Shown: positions 31,145 to 40,051 of the stretch, piece after piece | Layout: the number at the start of each line of letters is the position of its first letter | Numbering within the stretch: position 1 is the stretch's first letter | DNA from: Acidimicrobiaceae bacterium | GTDB lineage: Bacteria; Actinomycetota; Acidimicrobiia; Acidimicrobiales; RAAP-2 | Length of the DNA stretch: 51,964 bases | Direction of reading: 5' to 3' | NCBI GenBank assembly: GCA_003155915.1 | Contig: PMFA01000018.1 | Coordinates: 1 to 51,964 of the forward strand | Translations under genes and position numbers: made by a program | The notes under the pieces: generated by a model | Database searches by the model: none | Told to the model about the DNA's origin: nothing | Seen by the model: the letters and a program-made list of their open reading frames with translations, nothing else

Positions 31145-31834
31145 GTGACTTCCATCGATGCTGGCCCCTCTGGAGCGCTCCGCGTCGCCCCGTCCATTCT
31201 GGCCGCCGACTTTGGGTCCTTAGCCAGTGCGGTTCGCGAGATCGACGCGGAAACGGACTGGCTACACGTCGACGTGATGGACGGTCACTTCGTTCCGAAC
31301 GTATCGATCGGCCCGCCCGTCGTGAAGTCCCTGCGCCAGTACAGCGACCGATTCTTCGACTGCCACTTGATGATGAGCGAGCCCGGACGCTACCTCGAGG
31401 CCTTCCGAGCGGCCGGGGCTGACGGCTGCACCGTCCACGTCGAGGTGGGCTCGACCGCGACCCTGATTGACGAGGCGCATTCGTTGGGACTGCGCGTCGG
31501 TTTGGCGGCGAATCCTGATACGCCCTTCTCCAAGGTCGCGCCGTTTCTCGGCGATATCGACCTCCTTCTGCTGATGACCGTGTTTCCGGGCTTCGGCGGT
31601 CAATCCTTTATCGGCGACGTGATGAGCAAGGTCAACGAGGCTCGACGTGAAGTCGACGCCAATGAGTTGGCGCTCGATATCGAAGTTGATGGCGGGATCG
31701 ACGTGGTGACTGCCCCGATCGTCGTCGAGGCGGGCGCCAACGTGCTCGTCGCCGGTTCGGCGATCTTCAACCGCCCCGATCCCCTCGAAGCGGCGCACGA
31801 ACTACGGGTCGCCGCGAGGTCCGGTCGAGCGTGA
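31145..31834 (+). CDS. rpe: Ribulose-phosphate 3-epimerase
   Basis: TIM-barrel epimerase that interconverts ribulose 5-phosphate and xylulose 5-phosphate. The 229-residue protein has APSILAADFGSL, the metal-binding HVDVMDGHFVPN, FDCHLMM, TVFPGFGGQSF and EVDGGID with the catalytic Asp. It leads the riboflavin genes, and its ribulose 5-phosphate is a direct substrate of the RibB domain of RibBA. GTG 31145 is fixed by the leaderless -10. Confidence 0.95.
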   Translation: MTSIDAGPSGALRVAPSILAADFGSLASAVREIDAETDWLHVDVMDGHFVPNVSIGPPVVKSLRQYSDRFFDCHLMMSEPGRYLEAFRAAGADGCTVHVEVGSTATLIDEAHSLGLRVGLAANPDTPFSKVAPFLGDIDLLLLMTVFPGFGGQSFIGDVMSKVNEARREVDANELALDIEVDGGIDVVTAPIVVEAGANVLVAGSAIFNRPDPLEAAHELRVAARSGRA

Positions 31835-32817
31835 GGTTCTCCAACACTGAACTGATGACCATGGCGATTGGCGCGGGCGACAAGGCGCGATTCCTCTCGC
31901 CACCGAACCCGTGGGTCGGGGCACTGGTCGTCAGTGAGCGCGGCGTCGTCGTGAGTGAGGGCCACACGCAGGTGCCGGGTGAGTCCCACGCCGAGATCGA
32001 GGCCCTTCGACGCGCCGGTGACGGCGCGCGGGGCTCGACCATGGTCGTCACCCTGGAGCCCTGCTCGCACCAAGGGCGAACGGGTCCCTGCGTCGAGGCG
32101 ATCATCGAGGCCGGGGTGTCACGAGTCATCGTCGGCACGATCGACCCGGATCCTCGCGTCTCGGGCGCGGGCGTGGAACTCTTGAAGGCCTCGGGCGTCG
32201 ACGTCGAAGTGGGGGTCGAAGAGACGGCCGTACGCGCCCAACTCGCTCCCTATATATGGCATCGGGTGACGGGCCGGCCCTACGTCGTGTTGAAGGTCGC
32301 GAGCACCCTCGACGGCGTCGTCGCGATGGCTGACGGCACGAGCCAGTGGATCACCGGGGAAGAGGCCCGCCGCGACGCGCACGTCTTGCGAGCGCAGAGT
32401 CAGGCGGTCCTGGTCGGTGCCGGGACCGCGCGAAGTGACGACCCCGCCCTCACGGCGCGTCTCGGGGACCTGGTGGTCGAGCCCCTGCGCGTCGTCCTCG
32501 GTTCCGCGCCCAAGGGAGCGAAGATGCGACCCTGTCTCGAACTGAGCGGTGATCTCTCGCACGTGCTCGACGAGATCGCGAGTCACGACGTCTTGCAACT
32601 CCTCGTCGAGGGCGGTCCCACGACCGCGAGTTCGTTCCTCGAGGCCGGACTGGTGAACCACATTGTCTGGTACCAATCGGCGTCCTTCGCCGGCAGCGAC
32701 GGTACGCTCGGCGCGCTCAAGGGTCTCTCGACATCGACGATCGCGGCGTTGCGCCGCGGACGCATTGTCAGCGTCCAAAGAGTCGGAGAAGATATTCGAA
32801 TAGACGTGGAGGTCTAA
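31831..32817 (+). CDS. ribD: Bifunctional riboflavin deaminase / reductase
   Basis: Second and third steps of riboflavin synthesis from GTP. In this 328-residue protein the N-terminal zinc deaminase domain has the HAE motif (ESHAEIEAL) and EPCSHQGRTGPC. The C-terminal reductase domain begins near VVLKVASTLDGVVA and includes LLVEGGPTTASSFL. It overlaps rpe by GTGA and ribBA by 1 nt (TAATG). Confidence 0.93.
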   Translation: MRFSNTELMTMAIGAGDKARFLSPPNPWVGALVVSERGVVVSEGHTQVPGESHAEIEALRRAGDGARGSTMVVTLEPCSHQGRTGPCVEAIIEAGVSRVIVGTIDPDPRVSGAGVELLKASGVDVEVGVEETAVRAQLAPYIWHRVTGRPYVVLKVASTLDGVVAMADGTSQWITGEEARRDAHVLRAQSQAVLVGAGTARSDDPALTARLGDLVVEPLRVVLGSAPKGAKMRPCLELSGDLSHVLDEIASHDVLQLLVEGGPTTASSFLEAGLVNHIVWYQSASFAGSDGTLGALKGLSTSTIAALRRGRIVSVQRVGEDIRIDVEV

Positions 32818-34037
32818 TGGCATTTTCATCCATCGAAGAGGCGATCGATCAGTTGCGACACGGCGGCATGGTCGTCGTGGTCGACGACGCCGACCGCGAG
32901 AACGAAGGTGACCTCATCATGCCGGCCGAGGACGTCACGCCGGAGAGCATGGCGTTCTTCCTCGAGTACACCTCGGGTGTGTTCTGCGTGCCGATCGAGG
33001 CGGCGCGCGCGGACGCGCTCGACCTTCCGCTCATGGTCGTGGCCAACACCGAGGCGCAACGCACGGCCTTCACCGTGACCGTCGACTACCGTCACGGCAC
33101 GTCAACGGGTATCTCGGCCGGCGACCGTGCTGCGACGGTGAGAGCGCTGATCGATCCCGAGACGCGACCCAACGACCTCAATCGCCCGGGACACATCTTT
33201 CCGCTGCGCTACCGAGCTGGCGGCGTCTTGAAGCGCGCGGGCCATACGGAGGCGACGGTCGACCTCTGTCGTCTGGCCGGCAAGCAGCCCTCCGGCGTAC
33301 TCTGTGAGATCGTCACGGACGACAAGTCCGGGATGGCCCGTCTGCCCGAACTCGAAGCCTTCGCCGAGAAGCACCGGCTGCCGATCGTCTCGATCGCCGA
33401 CCTCATCCGCTACCGGCGTCGTCACGAGAAACTGGTCAAGCGCATCGCCGAGGCGTCACTGCCCACCGAGCATGGTCAGTTCCAGGCCTACGTATTCGAG
33501 AACGTCCTCGACGGCGAACAGCACATGGCGTTGGTCTACGGTGACATCTCGACGACGCCCGACGTGCTCGTGCGGGTTCACTCCGAGTGCCTGACCGGCG
33601 ACGTGTTCGGTTCGATGCGCTGTGACTGCGGACCTCAGTTGGAAACGGCGCTCGCGAAGGTCGCGGCCGAAGGCGCCGGCGTCGTCGTGTACTTGCGAGG
33701 TCACGAGGGCCGCGGCATCGGACTCGGACACAAGATCCGCGCGTACGCCCTGCAAGAGGAGGGCCGAGACACCGTCGACGCGAATCTCGAGCTCGGTCTC
33801 CCGGTCGACTCGCGCGAGTACGGCGTCGGCGCACAGATCCTCGTCGACCTCGGCGTCACCTCGATGCGGGTGATGACGAATAACCCCTCGAAGTACGGCG
33901 GCCTGGAGGGCTTCGGCTTGAATATCGTCGAACGCGTGCCGCTCGAGAGCAGCCCTACGGCGTTCAACATCGACTATCTACGAACGAAGCGAGAGCGACT
34001 CGGTCACTTGCTGGGAGGACTCGATGACGTCGACTGA
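32817..34037 (+). CDS. ribBA: Bifunctional DHBP synthase / GTP cyclohydrolase II
   Basis: Feeds both branches of riboflavin synthesis. The N-terminal RibB domain (about 1-200) has DDADRENEGD and HGTSTGISAGDRA and acts on ribulose 5-phosphate. The C-terminal RibA domain (about 207-406) has the zinc site VHSECLTGDVFGSMRCDCG and RGHEGRGIGL and opens GTP. The last 14 nt overlap ribH. Confidence 0.96.
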   Translation: MAFSSIEEAIDQLRHGGMVVVVDDADRENEGDLIMPAEDVTPESMAFFLEYTSGVFCVPIEAARADALDLPLMVVANTEAQRTAFTVTVDYRHGTSTGISAGDRAATVRALIDPETRPNDLNRPGHIFPLRYRAGGVLKRAGHTEATVDLCRLAGKQPSGVLCEIVTDDKSGMARLPELEAFAEKHRLPIVSIADLIRYRRRHEKLVKRIAEASLPTEHGQFQAYVFENVLDGEQHMALVYGDISTTPDVLVRVHSECLTGDVFGSMRCDCGPQLETALAKVAAEGAGVVVYLRGHEGRGIGLGHKIRAYALQEEGRDTVDANLELGLPVDSREYGVGAQILVDLGVTSMRVMTNNPSKYGGLEGFGLNIVERVPLESSPTAFNIDYLRTKRERLGHLLGGLDDVD

Positions 34038-34563
34038 CGAGACCCAGTTGGACCCTCGGCGCGTCCAGGAGTTAAAGATACGTGTCGGTGAGCATCTCGA
34101 GGGATCGCTCGTCGGTCGCGGTATTCGCGTGGCATTGGTCTGCAGTCGCTTCAACGGCGCCGTCACGACGCGGCTCCTCGAAGGAGCGCTCGACGTCTTG
34201 CGCGACGCCGGCGTCGATCGCAGCGACATCGCCGTCGGTTGGGTTCCTGGCGCCTTCGAGGTCCCGTTGATGGCGCTGGCCTTCGCCGACGGCGACCGGC
34301 CGGTCGACGCGGTGATCACGCTCGGAGCCGTGATTCGCGGCGAGACGACGCACTACGAAATCGTGTCGGGCGAATGTGCCCGCGGCGTGCAGGACGTCCA
34401 GTTGAGCACCCGCGTGCCGGTCGTCTTCGGCGTGCTCACCGTCAACACCCTCGATCAGGCGCTCGAACGTTCGGCCAAGGATGAGAGCAACAAGGGTCGT
34501 GAGGCAGCCGCCACCGCTCTCGAAATGGTGTCGGTCCTGCGCCAGGGATCGTTGGGTTCGTAG
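34024..34563 (+). CDS. ribH: 6,7-dimethyl-8-ribityllumazine synthase
   Basis: Condenses DHBP with the RibD product; it usually forms 60-mer shells. The 179-residue protein has VALVCSRFNGAVTTRLLEGA, WVPGAFEVPL, GAVIRGETTHYE and VFGVLTVNTLDQA, all RibH signatures. A 30-residue N-terminal extension precedes the conserved core. The riboflavin synthase (ribE) that would complete the pathway is not in this operon. Confidence 0.95.
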   Translation: MTSTDETQLDPRRVQELKIRVGEHLEGSLVGRGIRVALVCSRFNGAVTTRLLEGALDVLRDAGVDRSDIAVGWVPGAFEVPLMALAFADGDRPVDAVITLGAVIRGETTHYEIVSGECARGVQDVQLSTRVPVVFGVLTVNTLDQALERSAKDESNKGREAAATALEMVSVLRQGSLGS

Positions 34564-34568
34564 CGGCG

Positions 34569-34775
34569 ATGAAGGGTCGGATAGAGGCGTTCGACGACCA
34601 TCGCGGTGACGGATTCATGGTATCTGAGAAGGGCGATCGTTTCTTCTTTCACTGTGTGAGCATCGCCGACGGGTCACGGACGATCACTCCGGGCCAAAGC
34701 GTCACGGCGCAGCGCGGCGTCGGACATCTCGGTCACGACGAGGCCTTTGAGATTGAGAAGGAAACTGACGCCTAG
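34569..34775 (+). CDS. Divergent cold-shock-domain protein (68 aa)
   Basis: The size and layout match a single cold-shock OB-fold. It starts KGRIEAFDDHRGDGFM where CspA has the RNP1-type KGFGFI, and continues with FFFHCVSI for RNP2 VFVHxSAI, then a GQSVTAQRGVG strand and EAFEIE near the end. The Trp and one RNP1 aromatic residue are lost, so nucleic-acid binding may be altered. It lies 5 nt after ribH and probably belongs to the same transcript. RNA/DNA binding is inferred from fold only. Confidence 0.75.
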   Translation: MKGRIEAFDDHRGDGFMVSEKGDRFFFHCVSIADGSRTITPGQSVTAQRGVGHLGHDEAFEIEKETDA

Positions 34776-35270: not shown

Positions 35271-35276
35271 ATCGTA
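35271..35276 (-). promoter_or_regulatory. -10 element TACGAT of the one-domain secreted gene
   Basis: Minus-strand TACGAT exactly 22 bp downstream of a TTCACA box, giving a leader of about 20 nt with a ribosome site. Confidence 0.55.
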
Positions 35277-35298
35277 CCGAGCAATCCTTGGAAATTCC

Positions 35299-35326
35299 TG
35301 TGAATCGATTGAATATCGGTTGTGAA
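35299..35326 (-). promoter_or_regulatory. Paired TTCACA boxes upstream of the one-domain secreted gene
   Basis: Two TTCACA copies on the minus strand (35304-35299 and 35326-35321), 22 bp apart start to start, with a weak half-match midway. The same arrangement occurs before the paralogue at 36210-36237. The spacing fits the 11-bp direct-repeat sites of OmpR/PhoP-type regulators. Confidence 0.6.
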
Positions 35327-35390
35327 GATCGTTCTCGTGATCATCAATCCCGCACGACGACGATGACCAACGTGTCGCACGTAACGCCGA

Positions 35391-35432
35391 AAAGCAATCG
35401 GCGCGCTGTTCCCGAGAGAACAGCGCGCCGAT
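35391..35432 (-). terminator. Rho-independent-type terminator of the two-domain secreted gene
   Basis: A perfect 15-bp stem (arms 35397-35411 and 35418-35432, loop of 6 nt), followed on the minus strand by TGCTTTT. It lies 16 bp past the stop at 35449. Confidence 0.75.
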
Positions 35433-35448
35433 CAAGGACAGCGTGTGA

Positions 35449-36153
35449 CTAGGCAGTGGTGGTCGTAGACGGCACTGTCGTCGTCGTGGTCGCAGTGGTG
35501 CCACCCGATGAGGCGGGAGGCGGTCCCAGGGCGACCAACGCAGCGGCGCGAACAACGGCAGCCTGGGCAACGGCCAGGTTCAAGGCGTCGCGAACTACGA
35601 GTCGCTCAGCCGCAGTCGTGGCACTCGGGAAGGCTGCGGCGAAGGCCGCGTCAGCCGTGGCGACTGAGTTGCGATAGGTCTGATTGATTGCCTGAAGAGC
35701 GACGATGTACGTCGAACGGGGGGTACCGGCCGGAGGCGCCGGGGGAGCACCAAGCGTGGTGAGCGCCGTGGAACGGGCTTCCATCGCGTTGGCGATCGAT
35801 AGCGTCAAGGCAGCACGGGCCGCGGCACGGGCCGCCTGGCGATTACCAGAGCCCTTGGAAGCCTTGATGGCCGCCCAGTACTCTTGGCGAGCGACGTCAA
35901 CCGTGGCCCGAAAGGTCTTGTTAATGACCTTCAACTGCGCCAGGTAGGCGTTCTCGGCCTTGCGCCACTGCTTCCACGGGGTGTTCGAACCGGCGTGGAT
36001 CGTCGTGGTCGTGGTGGCAACGGTGGTGGTGGTGGTGGTTGGTGCGGTCGTGGTCGTGGTGGTGGTGTCTGCGGTCGCAACGGCCGGGGCGCTTATGCCC
36101 AGGGCTGCAATCATGGCCACCGCCACAACGCCTCGTGTACTGAACTTCATCAT
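35449..36153 (-). CDS. Secreted Thr-rich protein, two-domain paralogue (234 aa), unknown function
   Basis: A signal peptide (probable cut near AVATA) is followed by a long Thr tract and then two copies of the same helical domain. Copy 1 runs from YLAQLKVINKTF to ARSTALTTLGAPP and copy 2 from YIVALQAINQTY to VRAAALVALGPPP. Pro-rich joints follow each copy, and the protein ends in a second Thr tract. ATG 36153 has GAAAGGGG 5 nt upstream. It ends at a strong terminator. The domain is unknown to me; Thr tracts on both sides suggest a glycosylated or stretched surface protein. Confidence 0.8.
   Translation of the reverse strand: MMKFSTRGVVAVAMIAALGISAPAVATADTTTTTTTAPTTTTTTVATTTTTIHAGSNTPWKQWRKAENAYLAQLKVINKTFRATVDVARQEYWAAIKASKGSGNRQAARAAARAALTLSIANAMEARSTALTTLGAPPAPPAGTPRSTYIVALQAINQTYRNSVATADAAFAAAFPSATTAAERLVVRDALNLAVAQAAVVRAAALVALGPPPASSGGTTATTTTTVPSTTTTA
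36001..36068. repeat. Imperfect trinucleotide repeat coding for the Thr tract
   Basis: Runs of GGT/GTC triplets on the plus strand (ACC and ACG codons on the minus strand) encode the N-terminal Thr linker of the two-domain secreted protein. Changes in copy number would alter linker length without shifting the frame. Confidence 0.7.
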
Positions 36154-36181
36154 GTGGACCCCTTTCAAAGGAACAAGGTCA

Positions 36182-36187
36182 ACTGTA
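36182..36187 (-). promoter_or_regulatory. -10 element TACAGT of the two-domain secreted gene
   Basis: Minus-strand TACAGT, 22 bp downstream of a TTCACA box; leader of about 22 nt with a ribosome site. Confidence 0.55.
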
Positions 36188-36209
36188 AAATTCGAGATTT
36201 TGAAAACCC

Positions 36210-36237
36210 TGTGAAGTGCTTGTTTATTCGCTGTGAA
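36210..36237 (-). promoter_or_regulatory. Paired TTCACA boxes between the secreted gene and the response regulator
   Basis: TTCACA on the minus strand at 36215-36210 and 36237-36232, again 22 bp apart, with TAAACA at the midpoint giving a near-regular 11-bp repeat. It lies 46 bp upstream of the -10 of the divergent response-regulator gene, so it could also act on that promoter. Confidence 0.6.
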
Positions 36238-36282: not shown

Positions 36283-36288
36283 TACGCT
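36283..36288 (+). promoter_or_regulatory. -10 element TACGCT, leaderless promoter of the two-component operon
   Basis: TACGCT ends 6 nt before ATG 36295, which opens a five-codon ORF rather than the regulator itself. Confidence 0.6.
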
Positions 36289-36294
36289 CACAAC

Positions 36295-36312
36295 ATGCGA
36301 GCAGTGCTATGA
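36295..36312 (+). CDS. Five-codon leaderless ORF coupled to the response regulator
   Basis: Reads Met-Arg-Ala-Val-Leu-stop. Its TGA overlaps the regulator's ATG as ATGA at 36309-36312. A ribosome loading on the leaderless mRNA at 36295 would end exactly on the regulator start and could restart there. No good Shine-Dalgarno sequence precedes 36309, which supports this role. The peptide itself need not have a function. Confidence 0.55.
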   Translation: MRAVL

Positions 36313-38858: not shown

Positions 38859-39470
38859 ATCGCAACAGTGCCTGGAGACCACCGCGTCAATGAACGAATT
38901 CGCGTGGAGACCGTACGTCTGATCGATCACGAGGGCAACCAGCGTGGCGTGATGGCGACCCGTGAAGCATTGGCGTTGGCCCGAAGCCTCGACCTTGATC
39001 TCGTAGAGATCGCGCCCACCGCGCAACCGCCCGTCTGTCGCATCATGGACTACGGGAAGTTTAAGTTCGACGAGGCGCAAAAGGCCAAGGAGTCACGTCG
39101 AAAGACCCTCAACGTGGGAGTCAAGGAGATGAAGTATCGCCCGAAGATCGGACCCGGTGACTTCGACACCAAGACTCGTCTCGTGGAGAAGTTTCTCAAC
39201 GAGGGGCACAAGGTGAAAGTCACCATTATGTTTCGCGGACGAGAGTCGGCTCACCCCGAACTCGGAAGGAAGATCCTGGACCGAATCATCGAGAAGTTGG
39301 ATGACGTCGCCAAGGTCGAGTCGGCCGCGAAGCTCGATGGTCGCAACATGATCATGGTCCTCGGACCAGAAAAGAAGGCGAAGCCGAAGTCGGCCGAGAG
39401 CCCGAAAGTCGAAGAACCACAAGAAATCGCGCCGAGTGTTTCGGCCGAAGTATCGGTAGAGGAGGGCTGA
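38859..39470 (+). CDS. infC: Translation initiation factor IF-3, probable AUC start
   Basis: Binds the 30S subunit and rejects non-standard start codons. The 203-residue protein has [19 protein letters not shown], the linker [12 protein letters not shown], and the C-domain [16 protein letters not shown] and [11 protein letters not shown]; a charged Lys/Glu/Pro tail follows. AAGGAG (38847-38852) is 6 nt from ATC 38859 but 15 nt from GTG 38868, so I choose ATC. An AUU/AUC start lets IF3 repress its own synthesis. rpmI begins 1 nt after the stop. Confidence 0.9.
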
Positions 39471-39471
39471 A

Positions 39472-39666
39472 ATGCCAAAGATGAAGACTGACAGCGGGGC
39501 GAAGAAGCGCATCAAGGTGACCGGCAGCGGCAAGCTGCGCCGGGGCAAGGCCTTTCGGGGTCACCTCATGGAGAAGAAGTCGTCGGTTCGCGCCCGTCGA
39601 CTCGGTCGCGAGACCGACCTCTCTCCCGCGATGGAAAAGAAGACCAAGCGCCTGATGGGCATATAG
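39472..39666 (+). CDS. rpmI: 50S ribosomal protein bL35
   Basis: A 64-residue strongly basic protein: [20 protein letters not shown] at the start and a KRLMGI end are typical of bL35. It stands in the standard infC-rpmI-rplT order. Confidence 0.97.
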
Positions 39667-39691
39667 AGATCGAGTCGAAAGAGGAACTGTT

Positions 39692-40051
39692 ATGGCACGA
39701 GTCAAGAGGGCGGTCAACGCCAAGAAGCACCACAAGGCGATTCTGGAAGAGGCGAAGGGTTACTACGGTGACCGCAGTCGCACGTTCCGAGCGGCCAACC
39801 AGGCCGTCCAGCACTCCGGCGTGTACGCGTTTCGCGACCGCCGCGCGCGCAAGGGCGACATGCGTCGGCTCTGGATCCAAAGGATCAACGCGGGCACACG
39901 GGCCCACGGCATGAGTTACAGCCGGTTCATCGCCGGGCTCAACGCCGCGGGCATTGAAGTGGATCGTCGGATCCTGGCGGACTTGGCCGTGAGCGACAAC
40001 GCCGCCTTCGCGAGCATCGTCGCCCAGGCTGGCGCCGCGCTCTCCAAGTAG
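39692..40051 (+). CDS. rplT: 50S ribosomal protein bL20
   Basis: A 119-residue basic protein that binds 23S rRNA early in 50S assembly. Signatures are [32 protein letters not shown], and the globular C-domain [11 protein letters not shown] and [20 protein letters not shown]. In several bacteria L20 represses its own operon by binding the leader. GAGGAACTG lies before the ATG. Confidence 0.97.

Follow-up and report, generated by a model that had tools for sequence, protein, structure and literature searches.

A regulator–kinase pair beside two genes for secreted proteins

In the stretch of DNA analysed here (51,964 nucleotides in full, hereafter the window), the genes of a response regulator and a sensor histidine kinase adjoin two minus-strand genes, A and B, which encode related secreted proteins; gene A is divergent from the regulator gene at 36309 (Table 1). 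Profile A2 matches gene A in two segments (35716-36153 and 35470-35715). The module is flanked, at 31831-34563 and 38868-40051 of the window, by riboflavin-like genes (ribD-, ribAB- and ribH-like) and by infC- and rplT-like genes, all named from their translations only. A short plus-strand frame at 34569-34775, flanked by gene B and the ribH-like gene, resembles a cold-shock-type protein.

Table 1. Genes, predicted promoter elements and box arrays of the module, in window positions.
Feature	Position	Strand	Description or basis
Gene B, secreted single-repeat paralog of A, 143 aa	34813-35244	-	ORF list; signal peptide and Thr-rich linker
Predicted -10 of gene B, TACGAT	35271-35276	-	sequence
Array B, four boxes	35288-35326	-	TTCACA 35321-35326, TATTCA 35310-35315, TTCACA 35299-35304, TTCCAA 35288-35293
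Gene A, secreted protein of ~234 aa	35449-36153	-	ORF list; signal peptide, Thr-rich linker and two helical repeat copies
Alternative start of gene A, TTG	36168 (in frame, upstream)	-	would yield 239 aa
Predicted -10 of gene A, TACAGT	36182-36187	-	11 bp past last box
Array A, four boxes (predicted regulator sites)	36199-36237	-	TTCACA 36232-36237, TAAACA 36221-36226, TTCACA 36210-36215, TTCAAA 36199-36204
Likely -10 of regulator gene, TACGCT	36283-36288	+	sequence
OmpR/PhoP-family response regulator, 229 aa	36309-36998	+	PF00072, E 3.7e-34; PF00486, E 1.1e-23
Sensor histidine kinase, 454 aa	36980-38344	+	PF00512 and PF02518 (HisKA, HATPase_c)

Four boxes at an 11-bp period precede both secreted genes

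An earlier note on this DNA had described two TTCACA hexamers separated by 16 bp, with TANNNT 22 bp beyond the second, upstream of both secreted genes. Both promoters have this layout (35299-35326 on the minus strand, with TACGAT; 36210-36237 on the minus strand, with TACAGT). The note had also seen a partial third copy midway between the hexamers; TAAACA in A and TATTCA in B bear this out, but three boxes are too few, and a fourth copy (TTCAAA in A, TTCCAA in B) had been overlooked. With that copy counted, the boxes in each promoter number four and recur every 11 bp, with 11 bp between the last one and TANNNT. Set in lines of 11 bases, promoter A reads TTCACAGCGAA / TAAACAAGCAC / TTCACAGGGTT / TTCAAAATCTC, then GAATTT TACAGT, and promoter B reads TTCACAACCGA / TATTCAATCGA / TTCACAGGAAT / TTCCAAGGATT, then GCTCGG TACGAT. 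Neither array is accompanied by a consensus -35 element. When TTCACA-N16-TTCACA was sought throughout the 2.52-Mb draft genome, as the note had suggested, exactly two matches were returned, those at genes A and B, and the pattern read backwards returned none. Within the window, the two exact matches compare with a mean of 0.00 in 100 shuffles.

Genes A and B are paralogs with a common leader around CCTTTGAAAGG, and the likeness of their promoters might reflect only a tandem duplication of gene A together with its promoter, the repeats themselves having no regulatory meaning. We regard this as very unlikely. Of 24 box positions the two promoters share 21, whereas elsewhere they share only 9 of 26, so that the intervening bases differ, as had been noted. 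Moreover, the same geometry occurs upstream of a second secreted family (family C, related to gene A in its N-terminal part only), and box arrays also stand before genes for an L,D-transpeptidase and an Na/H exchanger (see below). Gene B probably did arise by duplication, its boxes being kept by selection, as the contrast between box and non-box positions suggests. A tandem array at the B position is also found in three other genomes (G034, G003 and G010).

Arrays recur at regulator loci with fixed spacing and direction

We fetched 80 loci with a regulator homolog and scanned 61 of them (L016-L077 minus L022, from which the gene start is absent). A score for four boxes plus TANNNT reached at least 22 in 48 of the 61 divergent regions. 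Random windows taken from these loci reached it in 3 of 3421 cases, and opposite-strand regions in 1 of 61. The spacing was also examined in a hexamer distance test that is independent of the score by which the promoters were placed. Directed toward the secreted gene, box-like hexamer pairs were 11 bp apart in 28 cases, 22 bp in 22 and 33 bp in 24, giving 74 pairs in total; the next commonest distances were 2 bp (8 pairs), 13 bp (5) and 20 bp (2). The plus strand of the 61 loci held one pair at 33 bp and none at 11 or 22 bp, which means that no 11-bp boxes are directed at the regulator gene, and 212 kb of control DNA, counted on both strands, held none at 11, 22 or 33 bp. In all 28 of the 11-bp pairs, TANNNT stands 11 bp past the second hexamer, with no other distance within 4-24 represented. 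Spacings of 11, 22 and 33 bp thus dominate these loci, which is the 11-bp (7 + 4) direct-repeat period of an OmpR/PhoP-type operator.

The earlier note had placed the regulator gene beside one of the two sites. Regulator 36309 does adjoin array A, and the array recurs beside its orthologs across the genus, at a distance from the regulator start that is mostly about 60-75 bp, with 38-54 bp in other loci. Box 2 is poorly conserved. AGCGTAC, the reverse complement of the regulator -10, is found at the equivalent position in the six relatives compared. Even among distant homologs whose regulator is 54-60% identical (L068, L071, L072, L073 and L075), a hexamer pair 11 bp apart points toward a divergent small secreted ORF. 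By the score scan of the 61 loci, the array is absent from L061, L074, L076 and L077. At the last three of these no divergent secreted gene was seen, and an Ala/Lys-rich-looking ORF lies upstream on the same strand as the regulator.

The regulator resembles M. tuberculosis PhoP

Regulator 36309 belongs to the OmpR/PhoB family, as both PF00072 and PF00486 score above their curated cut-offs. Its best solved relatives are M. tuberculosis PhoP chains (E about 2.5e-47). Read off the alignment, three of six PhoP contact residues (N212, V213, E215, S216, Y217 and Y220) are identical and three are replaced (N212 by S, E215 by D and S216 by T). None of the best 25 of 102 matched NCBIfam families reached its cut-off. 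TIGR02154, the model for the PhoB/PhoP phosphate regulator, scored 179.6 bits, below its cut-off of 296.2, and that identity was rejected.

The earlier note had likened the boxes to the 11-bp repeats of two known regulators, and excerpts from the literature agree with it on both counts. An excerpt of PMC4832192 describes 7-bp TCACAGC repeats with a strict 4-bp spacer, on which M. tuberculosis PhoP sits as a tandem dimer; the spacer is needed, and tri- and tetra-repeats are bound more tightly than two. PHO boxes, bound by E. coli PhoB and Streptomyces PhoP, consist of two or more 11-nt direct repeats with seven conserved and four less conserved positions, GTTCACC being the Streptomyces form, according to an excerpt of PMC4415409. 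M. tuberculosis PhoP (PDB 3r0j and 5ed4) is the closest solved relative of the regulator, the half-site TTCACAG overlaps TCACAGC, and the 11-bp period is the same; in contrast, lineage and targets differ, and the substitutions noted above affect half of the base-contacting helix residues. The arrays share 11-bp direct repeats with PHO boxes as well, whereas the apparent targets here are secreted and envelope genes. Among the open-access literature matches listed, we found no earlier description of this system; in the excerpt of PMC3848588, TTCACAG occurs only within a primer.

The predicted model of the kinase (AlphaFold2, of moderate confidence; mean pLDDT 83.3, pTM 0.46) has two long helices around a small alpha/beta domain (~residues 76-140), followed by HisKA and HATPase_c. 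The alpha/beta domain is presumably extracytoplasmic.

Arrays away from the regulator precede secreted-protein genes

We built a sequence-only profile, R1, from 42 promoters of other genomes, with the window excluded. Its invariant columns are partly built in, because the score used to place those promoters favors TTCACAG and TANNNT. In the genome that carries the window, R1 gave array A 31.7 bits (E 3.8e-7, whole genome) and array B 30.0 bits (E 1.3e-6), followed by C10:322562 (family C, secreted; 18.2 bits) and C10:49676 (secreted, DUF5666-like; 14.9 bits). The product at C10:49676 matches DUF5666 with 19.8 bits, below the cut-off of 27. The profile match points to C10:322562 and, less surely, C10:49676 as probable unlinked targets in this genome. 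A match at C22:196632 (14.6 bits) was treated as chance, with no signal-peptide ORF recognised close downstream.

Across 61 genomes, R1 gave at least 56 matches at E<=0.05, found in 29 of 37 genomes of the same genus and in 1 of 24 from other families. Some matches were possibly missed because 93 first-look candidates were scored per genome, and those near E 0.01-0.05 may include chance hits. Sorted by hand, 27 of the 56 adjoin a regulator ortholog, 4 occupy the tandem B position and 25 lie elsewhere. Because many of the 27 coincide with training promoters, it is the 25 matches elsewhere that provide an independent test, and 23 of them precede signal-peptide-like ORFs; among random positions in those loci, 60 of 1000 did so. 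The 23 include an Na/H exchanger, a membrane protein, whose counterpart in a second genome was left uncounted. By the same manual sorting, the 25 comprise seven members of family C (with a GLATGGYTGS end), six of a two-repeat secreted family resembling gene A, eight other secreted proteins (several DUF5666-like), one L,D-transpeptidase (G030), two Na/H exchangers (G002 and G026) and one different regulator gene (G057). No phosphate-transport promoter was recognised by eye among the R1 matches in the window's own genome and the 61 genomes.

The array-like sites before the L,D-transpeptidase (L144, G030) and the Na/H exchanger (L146 and L149; G002 and G026), some of them without a clear TANNNT, hint at a cell-wall or ion/pH theme. 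In G057, which belongs to another family of the order, an array-like pair (L125, G057:C209:13948-13991, plus strand) lies just upstream of the different OmpR-family regulator gene, possibly representing a related self-regulated circuit.

Family C occurs in 8 of the 61 genomes, all of which have the regulator, and an array with the same spacing precedes it in 8 of 8. The DUF5666-like family D gives a more mixed picture. Of its 30 loci we examined 29, setting aside a second segment from a gene of G010. Among the 26 loci from regulator-bearing genomes, 7 have an 11-bp pair within the 100 bp that precede the aligned start and 2 more (G012 and G031) have one farther away; of the 3 loci from regulator-less genomes, none has such a pair. 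These counts suggest that only some family D members are targets, and leave the member in the window's own genome uncertain.

The earlier note had proposed a local circuit in which regulator 36309 controls both secreted genes through the boxes. Conservation and co-occurrence lend comparative support to that control; the circuit is not only local, however, because similar arrays precede other secreted-protein genes elsewhere.

The regulator might bind the arrays and yet repress the secreted genes, or might chiefly govern its own promoter 46 bp further along. OmpR-family proteins can repress, and the array does lie upstream of the regulator promoter. Against this, box 4 sits 11 bp upstream of a -10 that has no -35, which is the layout of an activator, the boxes are oriented toward the secreted gene, and unlinked targets have the same layout with no regulator gene adjoining. 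We therefore consider repression or chiefly autogenous control improbable, though worth keeping in view, and favor activation of the secreted genes.

Regulator and arrays occur together in the genus

Regulator orthologs of at least 54% identity are present in 31 of 37 same-genus genomes; the 24 other genomes have none, only a single 43% match. In all 31 regulator-bearing genomes an array stands at the divergent promoter, that of G018 being weak (its score of 19 is reached by 43 of 3421 random windows). Inspection found the array beside the ortholog in 30 of 30 loci, down to 65% identity, and additionally in G015 at 54%. G004 and G033 have the regulator and no R1 match, yet their arrays were seen on inspection; TANNNT stands one base further off in these two genomes and in G001 and G032. 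Across the genus, the array thus persists beside the regulator as the bases between the boxes drift. These are raw counts from within one genus, uncorrected for relatedness, and rest on draft genomes, many of them metagenome bins.

The six genomes lacking the regulator, four of them small (1.3-1.5 Mb), yielded no R1 match at E<=0.05 (0 of 6) among the 93 candidates scored in each. In a laxer search at E<=1, which scored 150 candidates per genome out of roughly 210-240, four of the six gave nothing, and G019 and G022 gave two weak matches each. A site in G022 (L294, G022:C31:2682-2732, plus strand; R1 E 0.086) has three boxes at exact 11-bp spacing with TATCCT in place, and precedes a 430-aa ORF without a signal peptide. 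The G022 assembly, in which a contig end truncates the secreted homolog, is 89% complete; the regulator gene may be missing from the assembly, or else this genome may be an exception to the pairing of regulator and array. The three-box site slightly lowers our confidence that the arrays are operators of 36309. The secreted family itself occurs in 31 of 31 regulator-bearing and 3 of 6 regulator-less genomes (G013, G016 and G022). Two of the latter three homologs could be inspected, those of G013 and G016, and neither has an array. In both genomes (L225 and L224, respectively) the lone homolog lies between acetyltransferase-like genes.

This distribution bears on whether the boxes belong to a different OmpR-family regulator, the neighborhood of 36309 being incidental. 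The genome has 11 Trans_reg_C genes, among them a RegX3-like one (L005), three PhoP-like ones (L008, L010 and L011) and L014 and L015. Several recognition helices are similar, and with L008, L010 and L011 also PhoP-like, helix comparison does not single out 36309; the GTTCACC repeats of Streptomyces PhoP have an equal period (excerpt of PMC4415409). When orthologs were traced in the six regulator-less genomes, using those regulator matches (30 of 39) for which a locus was available, L005 (70-77% identity), L008 (75-84%) and L013 (66-78%) were retained in 6 of 6. L006 and L009 each persisted in four of the six, L011 in two and L007 in one. Because they are retained where arrays are missing, these seven fit the array distribution poorly. 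For L010, L014, L015 and 36309 itself (L012), nothing above 43% was found in the six. L010 also fits poorly, because it is rare: only 5 of the 37 genomes of the genus, its own included, have an ortholog (at least 62% identical). L014 and L015 share with 36309 the absence of a match in all six regulator-less genomes; by eye, their recognition helices look least PhoP-like. It is next to orthologs of 36309, moreover, that the arrays recur. Another regulator as the owner of the boxes is, in our judgement, a decidedly unlikely explanation, and we favor 36309.

The divergent gene encodes a small secreted protein predicted to be helical

In 51 of 53 loci, the array side carries a divergent ORF that spans 90 codons or more and has a hydrophobic N-terminus. 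These 53 were drawn from L016-L075, with L022, L032, L045, L048, L061, L065 and L074, some of which are cut short, outside the count. When aligned, most of these ORFs have a common core ending in an ALxxLGxPP-like motif, and the divergent secreted gene is apparently the most constant target of the regulator/kinase pair. The core of protein B is predicted to form a helical hairpin (residues 55-93 and 97-125; AlphaFold2, block-mean pLDDT 93-98 over residues 61-130).

Neither secreted protein reaches the cut-off of any Pfam or NCBIfam family. Matches to Asr (E 0.008) and New_glue (E 0.00047) fell below cut-off, probably reflect composition and were rejected as identities. Foldseek returned nothing for the hairpin at E<=0.001. 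A second structure comparison returned generic helical hairpins, ZraP (3lay; Z 7.8, rmsd 3.6 over 76 residues) appearing alongside numerous unrelated ones; CpxP and Spy were not among its best 50 rows.

In the Cpx and Zra systems, an accessory gene is divergent from the regulator and kinase genes. CpxP, Spy and ZraP form a family of LTxxQ-type sequences, which neither secreted protein matched (Pfam to E 1, NCBIfam to E 0.01). According to an excerpt of PMC4985592, the periplasmic accessory protein CpxP of E. coli inhibits CpxA in negative feedback and, during envelope stress, ranks as the strongest of the CpxR targets. Like CpxP beside CpxRA and ZraP beside ZraSR, a small secreted helical protein is encoded here beside a regulator and a kinase. 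Unlike them, it has no sequence or Pfam link to those proteins, and its structural resemblance to ZraP is no better than that to unrelated hairpins. By analogy, we tentatively raise the possibility, itself somewhat doubtful, that the divergent hairpin could be a CpxP-like accessory sensor, controlled by the regulator, exported, and acting back on the extracytoplasmic domain of the kinase.

A model for control of a secreted and envelope regulon

Taken from the sequence comparisons, our preferred reading is that the four-box arrays are very probably operators of the adjacent PhoP-like regulator, which would activate a regulon of secreted and envelope genes with its core in the window. In this model, the membrane kinase would sense an extracytoplasmic signal and phosphorylate the regulator, which would then bind the 11-bp repeats head-to-tail, each comprising a 7-bp site and a 4-bp spacer. 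The last repeat lies at the would-be -35 place, 11 bp from TANNNT, and a regulator bound there could stand in for the missing -35 contact and activate transcription, as in the class II arrangement of PhoB. Besides gene A and its tandem paralog B, the targets would include a set of secreted or envelope genes that are not linked to them. The comparisons show the anatomy of the arrays, their conservation, their co-occurrence with this regulator within the genus and the class of gene that they precede; direct binding, dependence on phosphorylation, activation rather than repression, and signal sensing are the parts of this model that we infer.

The system is a further instance of the known PhoP-type operator and regulator design, not a new kind. 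For a two-component system of uncultivated actinobacteria, it provides an operator that can be tested and a predicted regulon; the bacteria are known here from draft genomes only, many of which are titled as peat and permafrost bins. A secreted family without a Pfam match at cut-off would thereby be tied to a signalling pathway. Were the divergent hairpin indeed an accessory sensor, it would have evolved independently as a counterpart of CpxP and ZraP, commanding an envelope regulon in this actinobacterial lineage. More generally, promoter grammar alone (the box, its 11-bp period and the 11 bp to TANNNT) may serve to find candidate regulon members in organisms where genetics is impossible.
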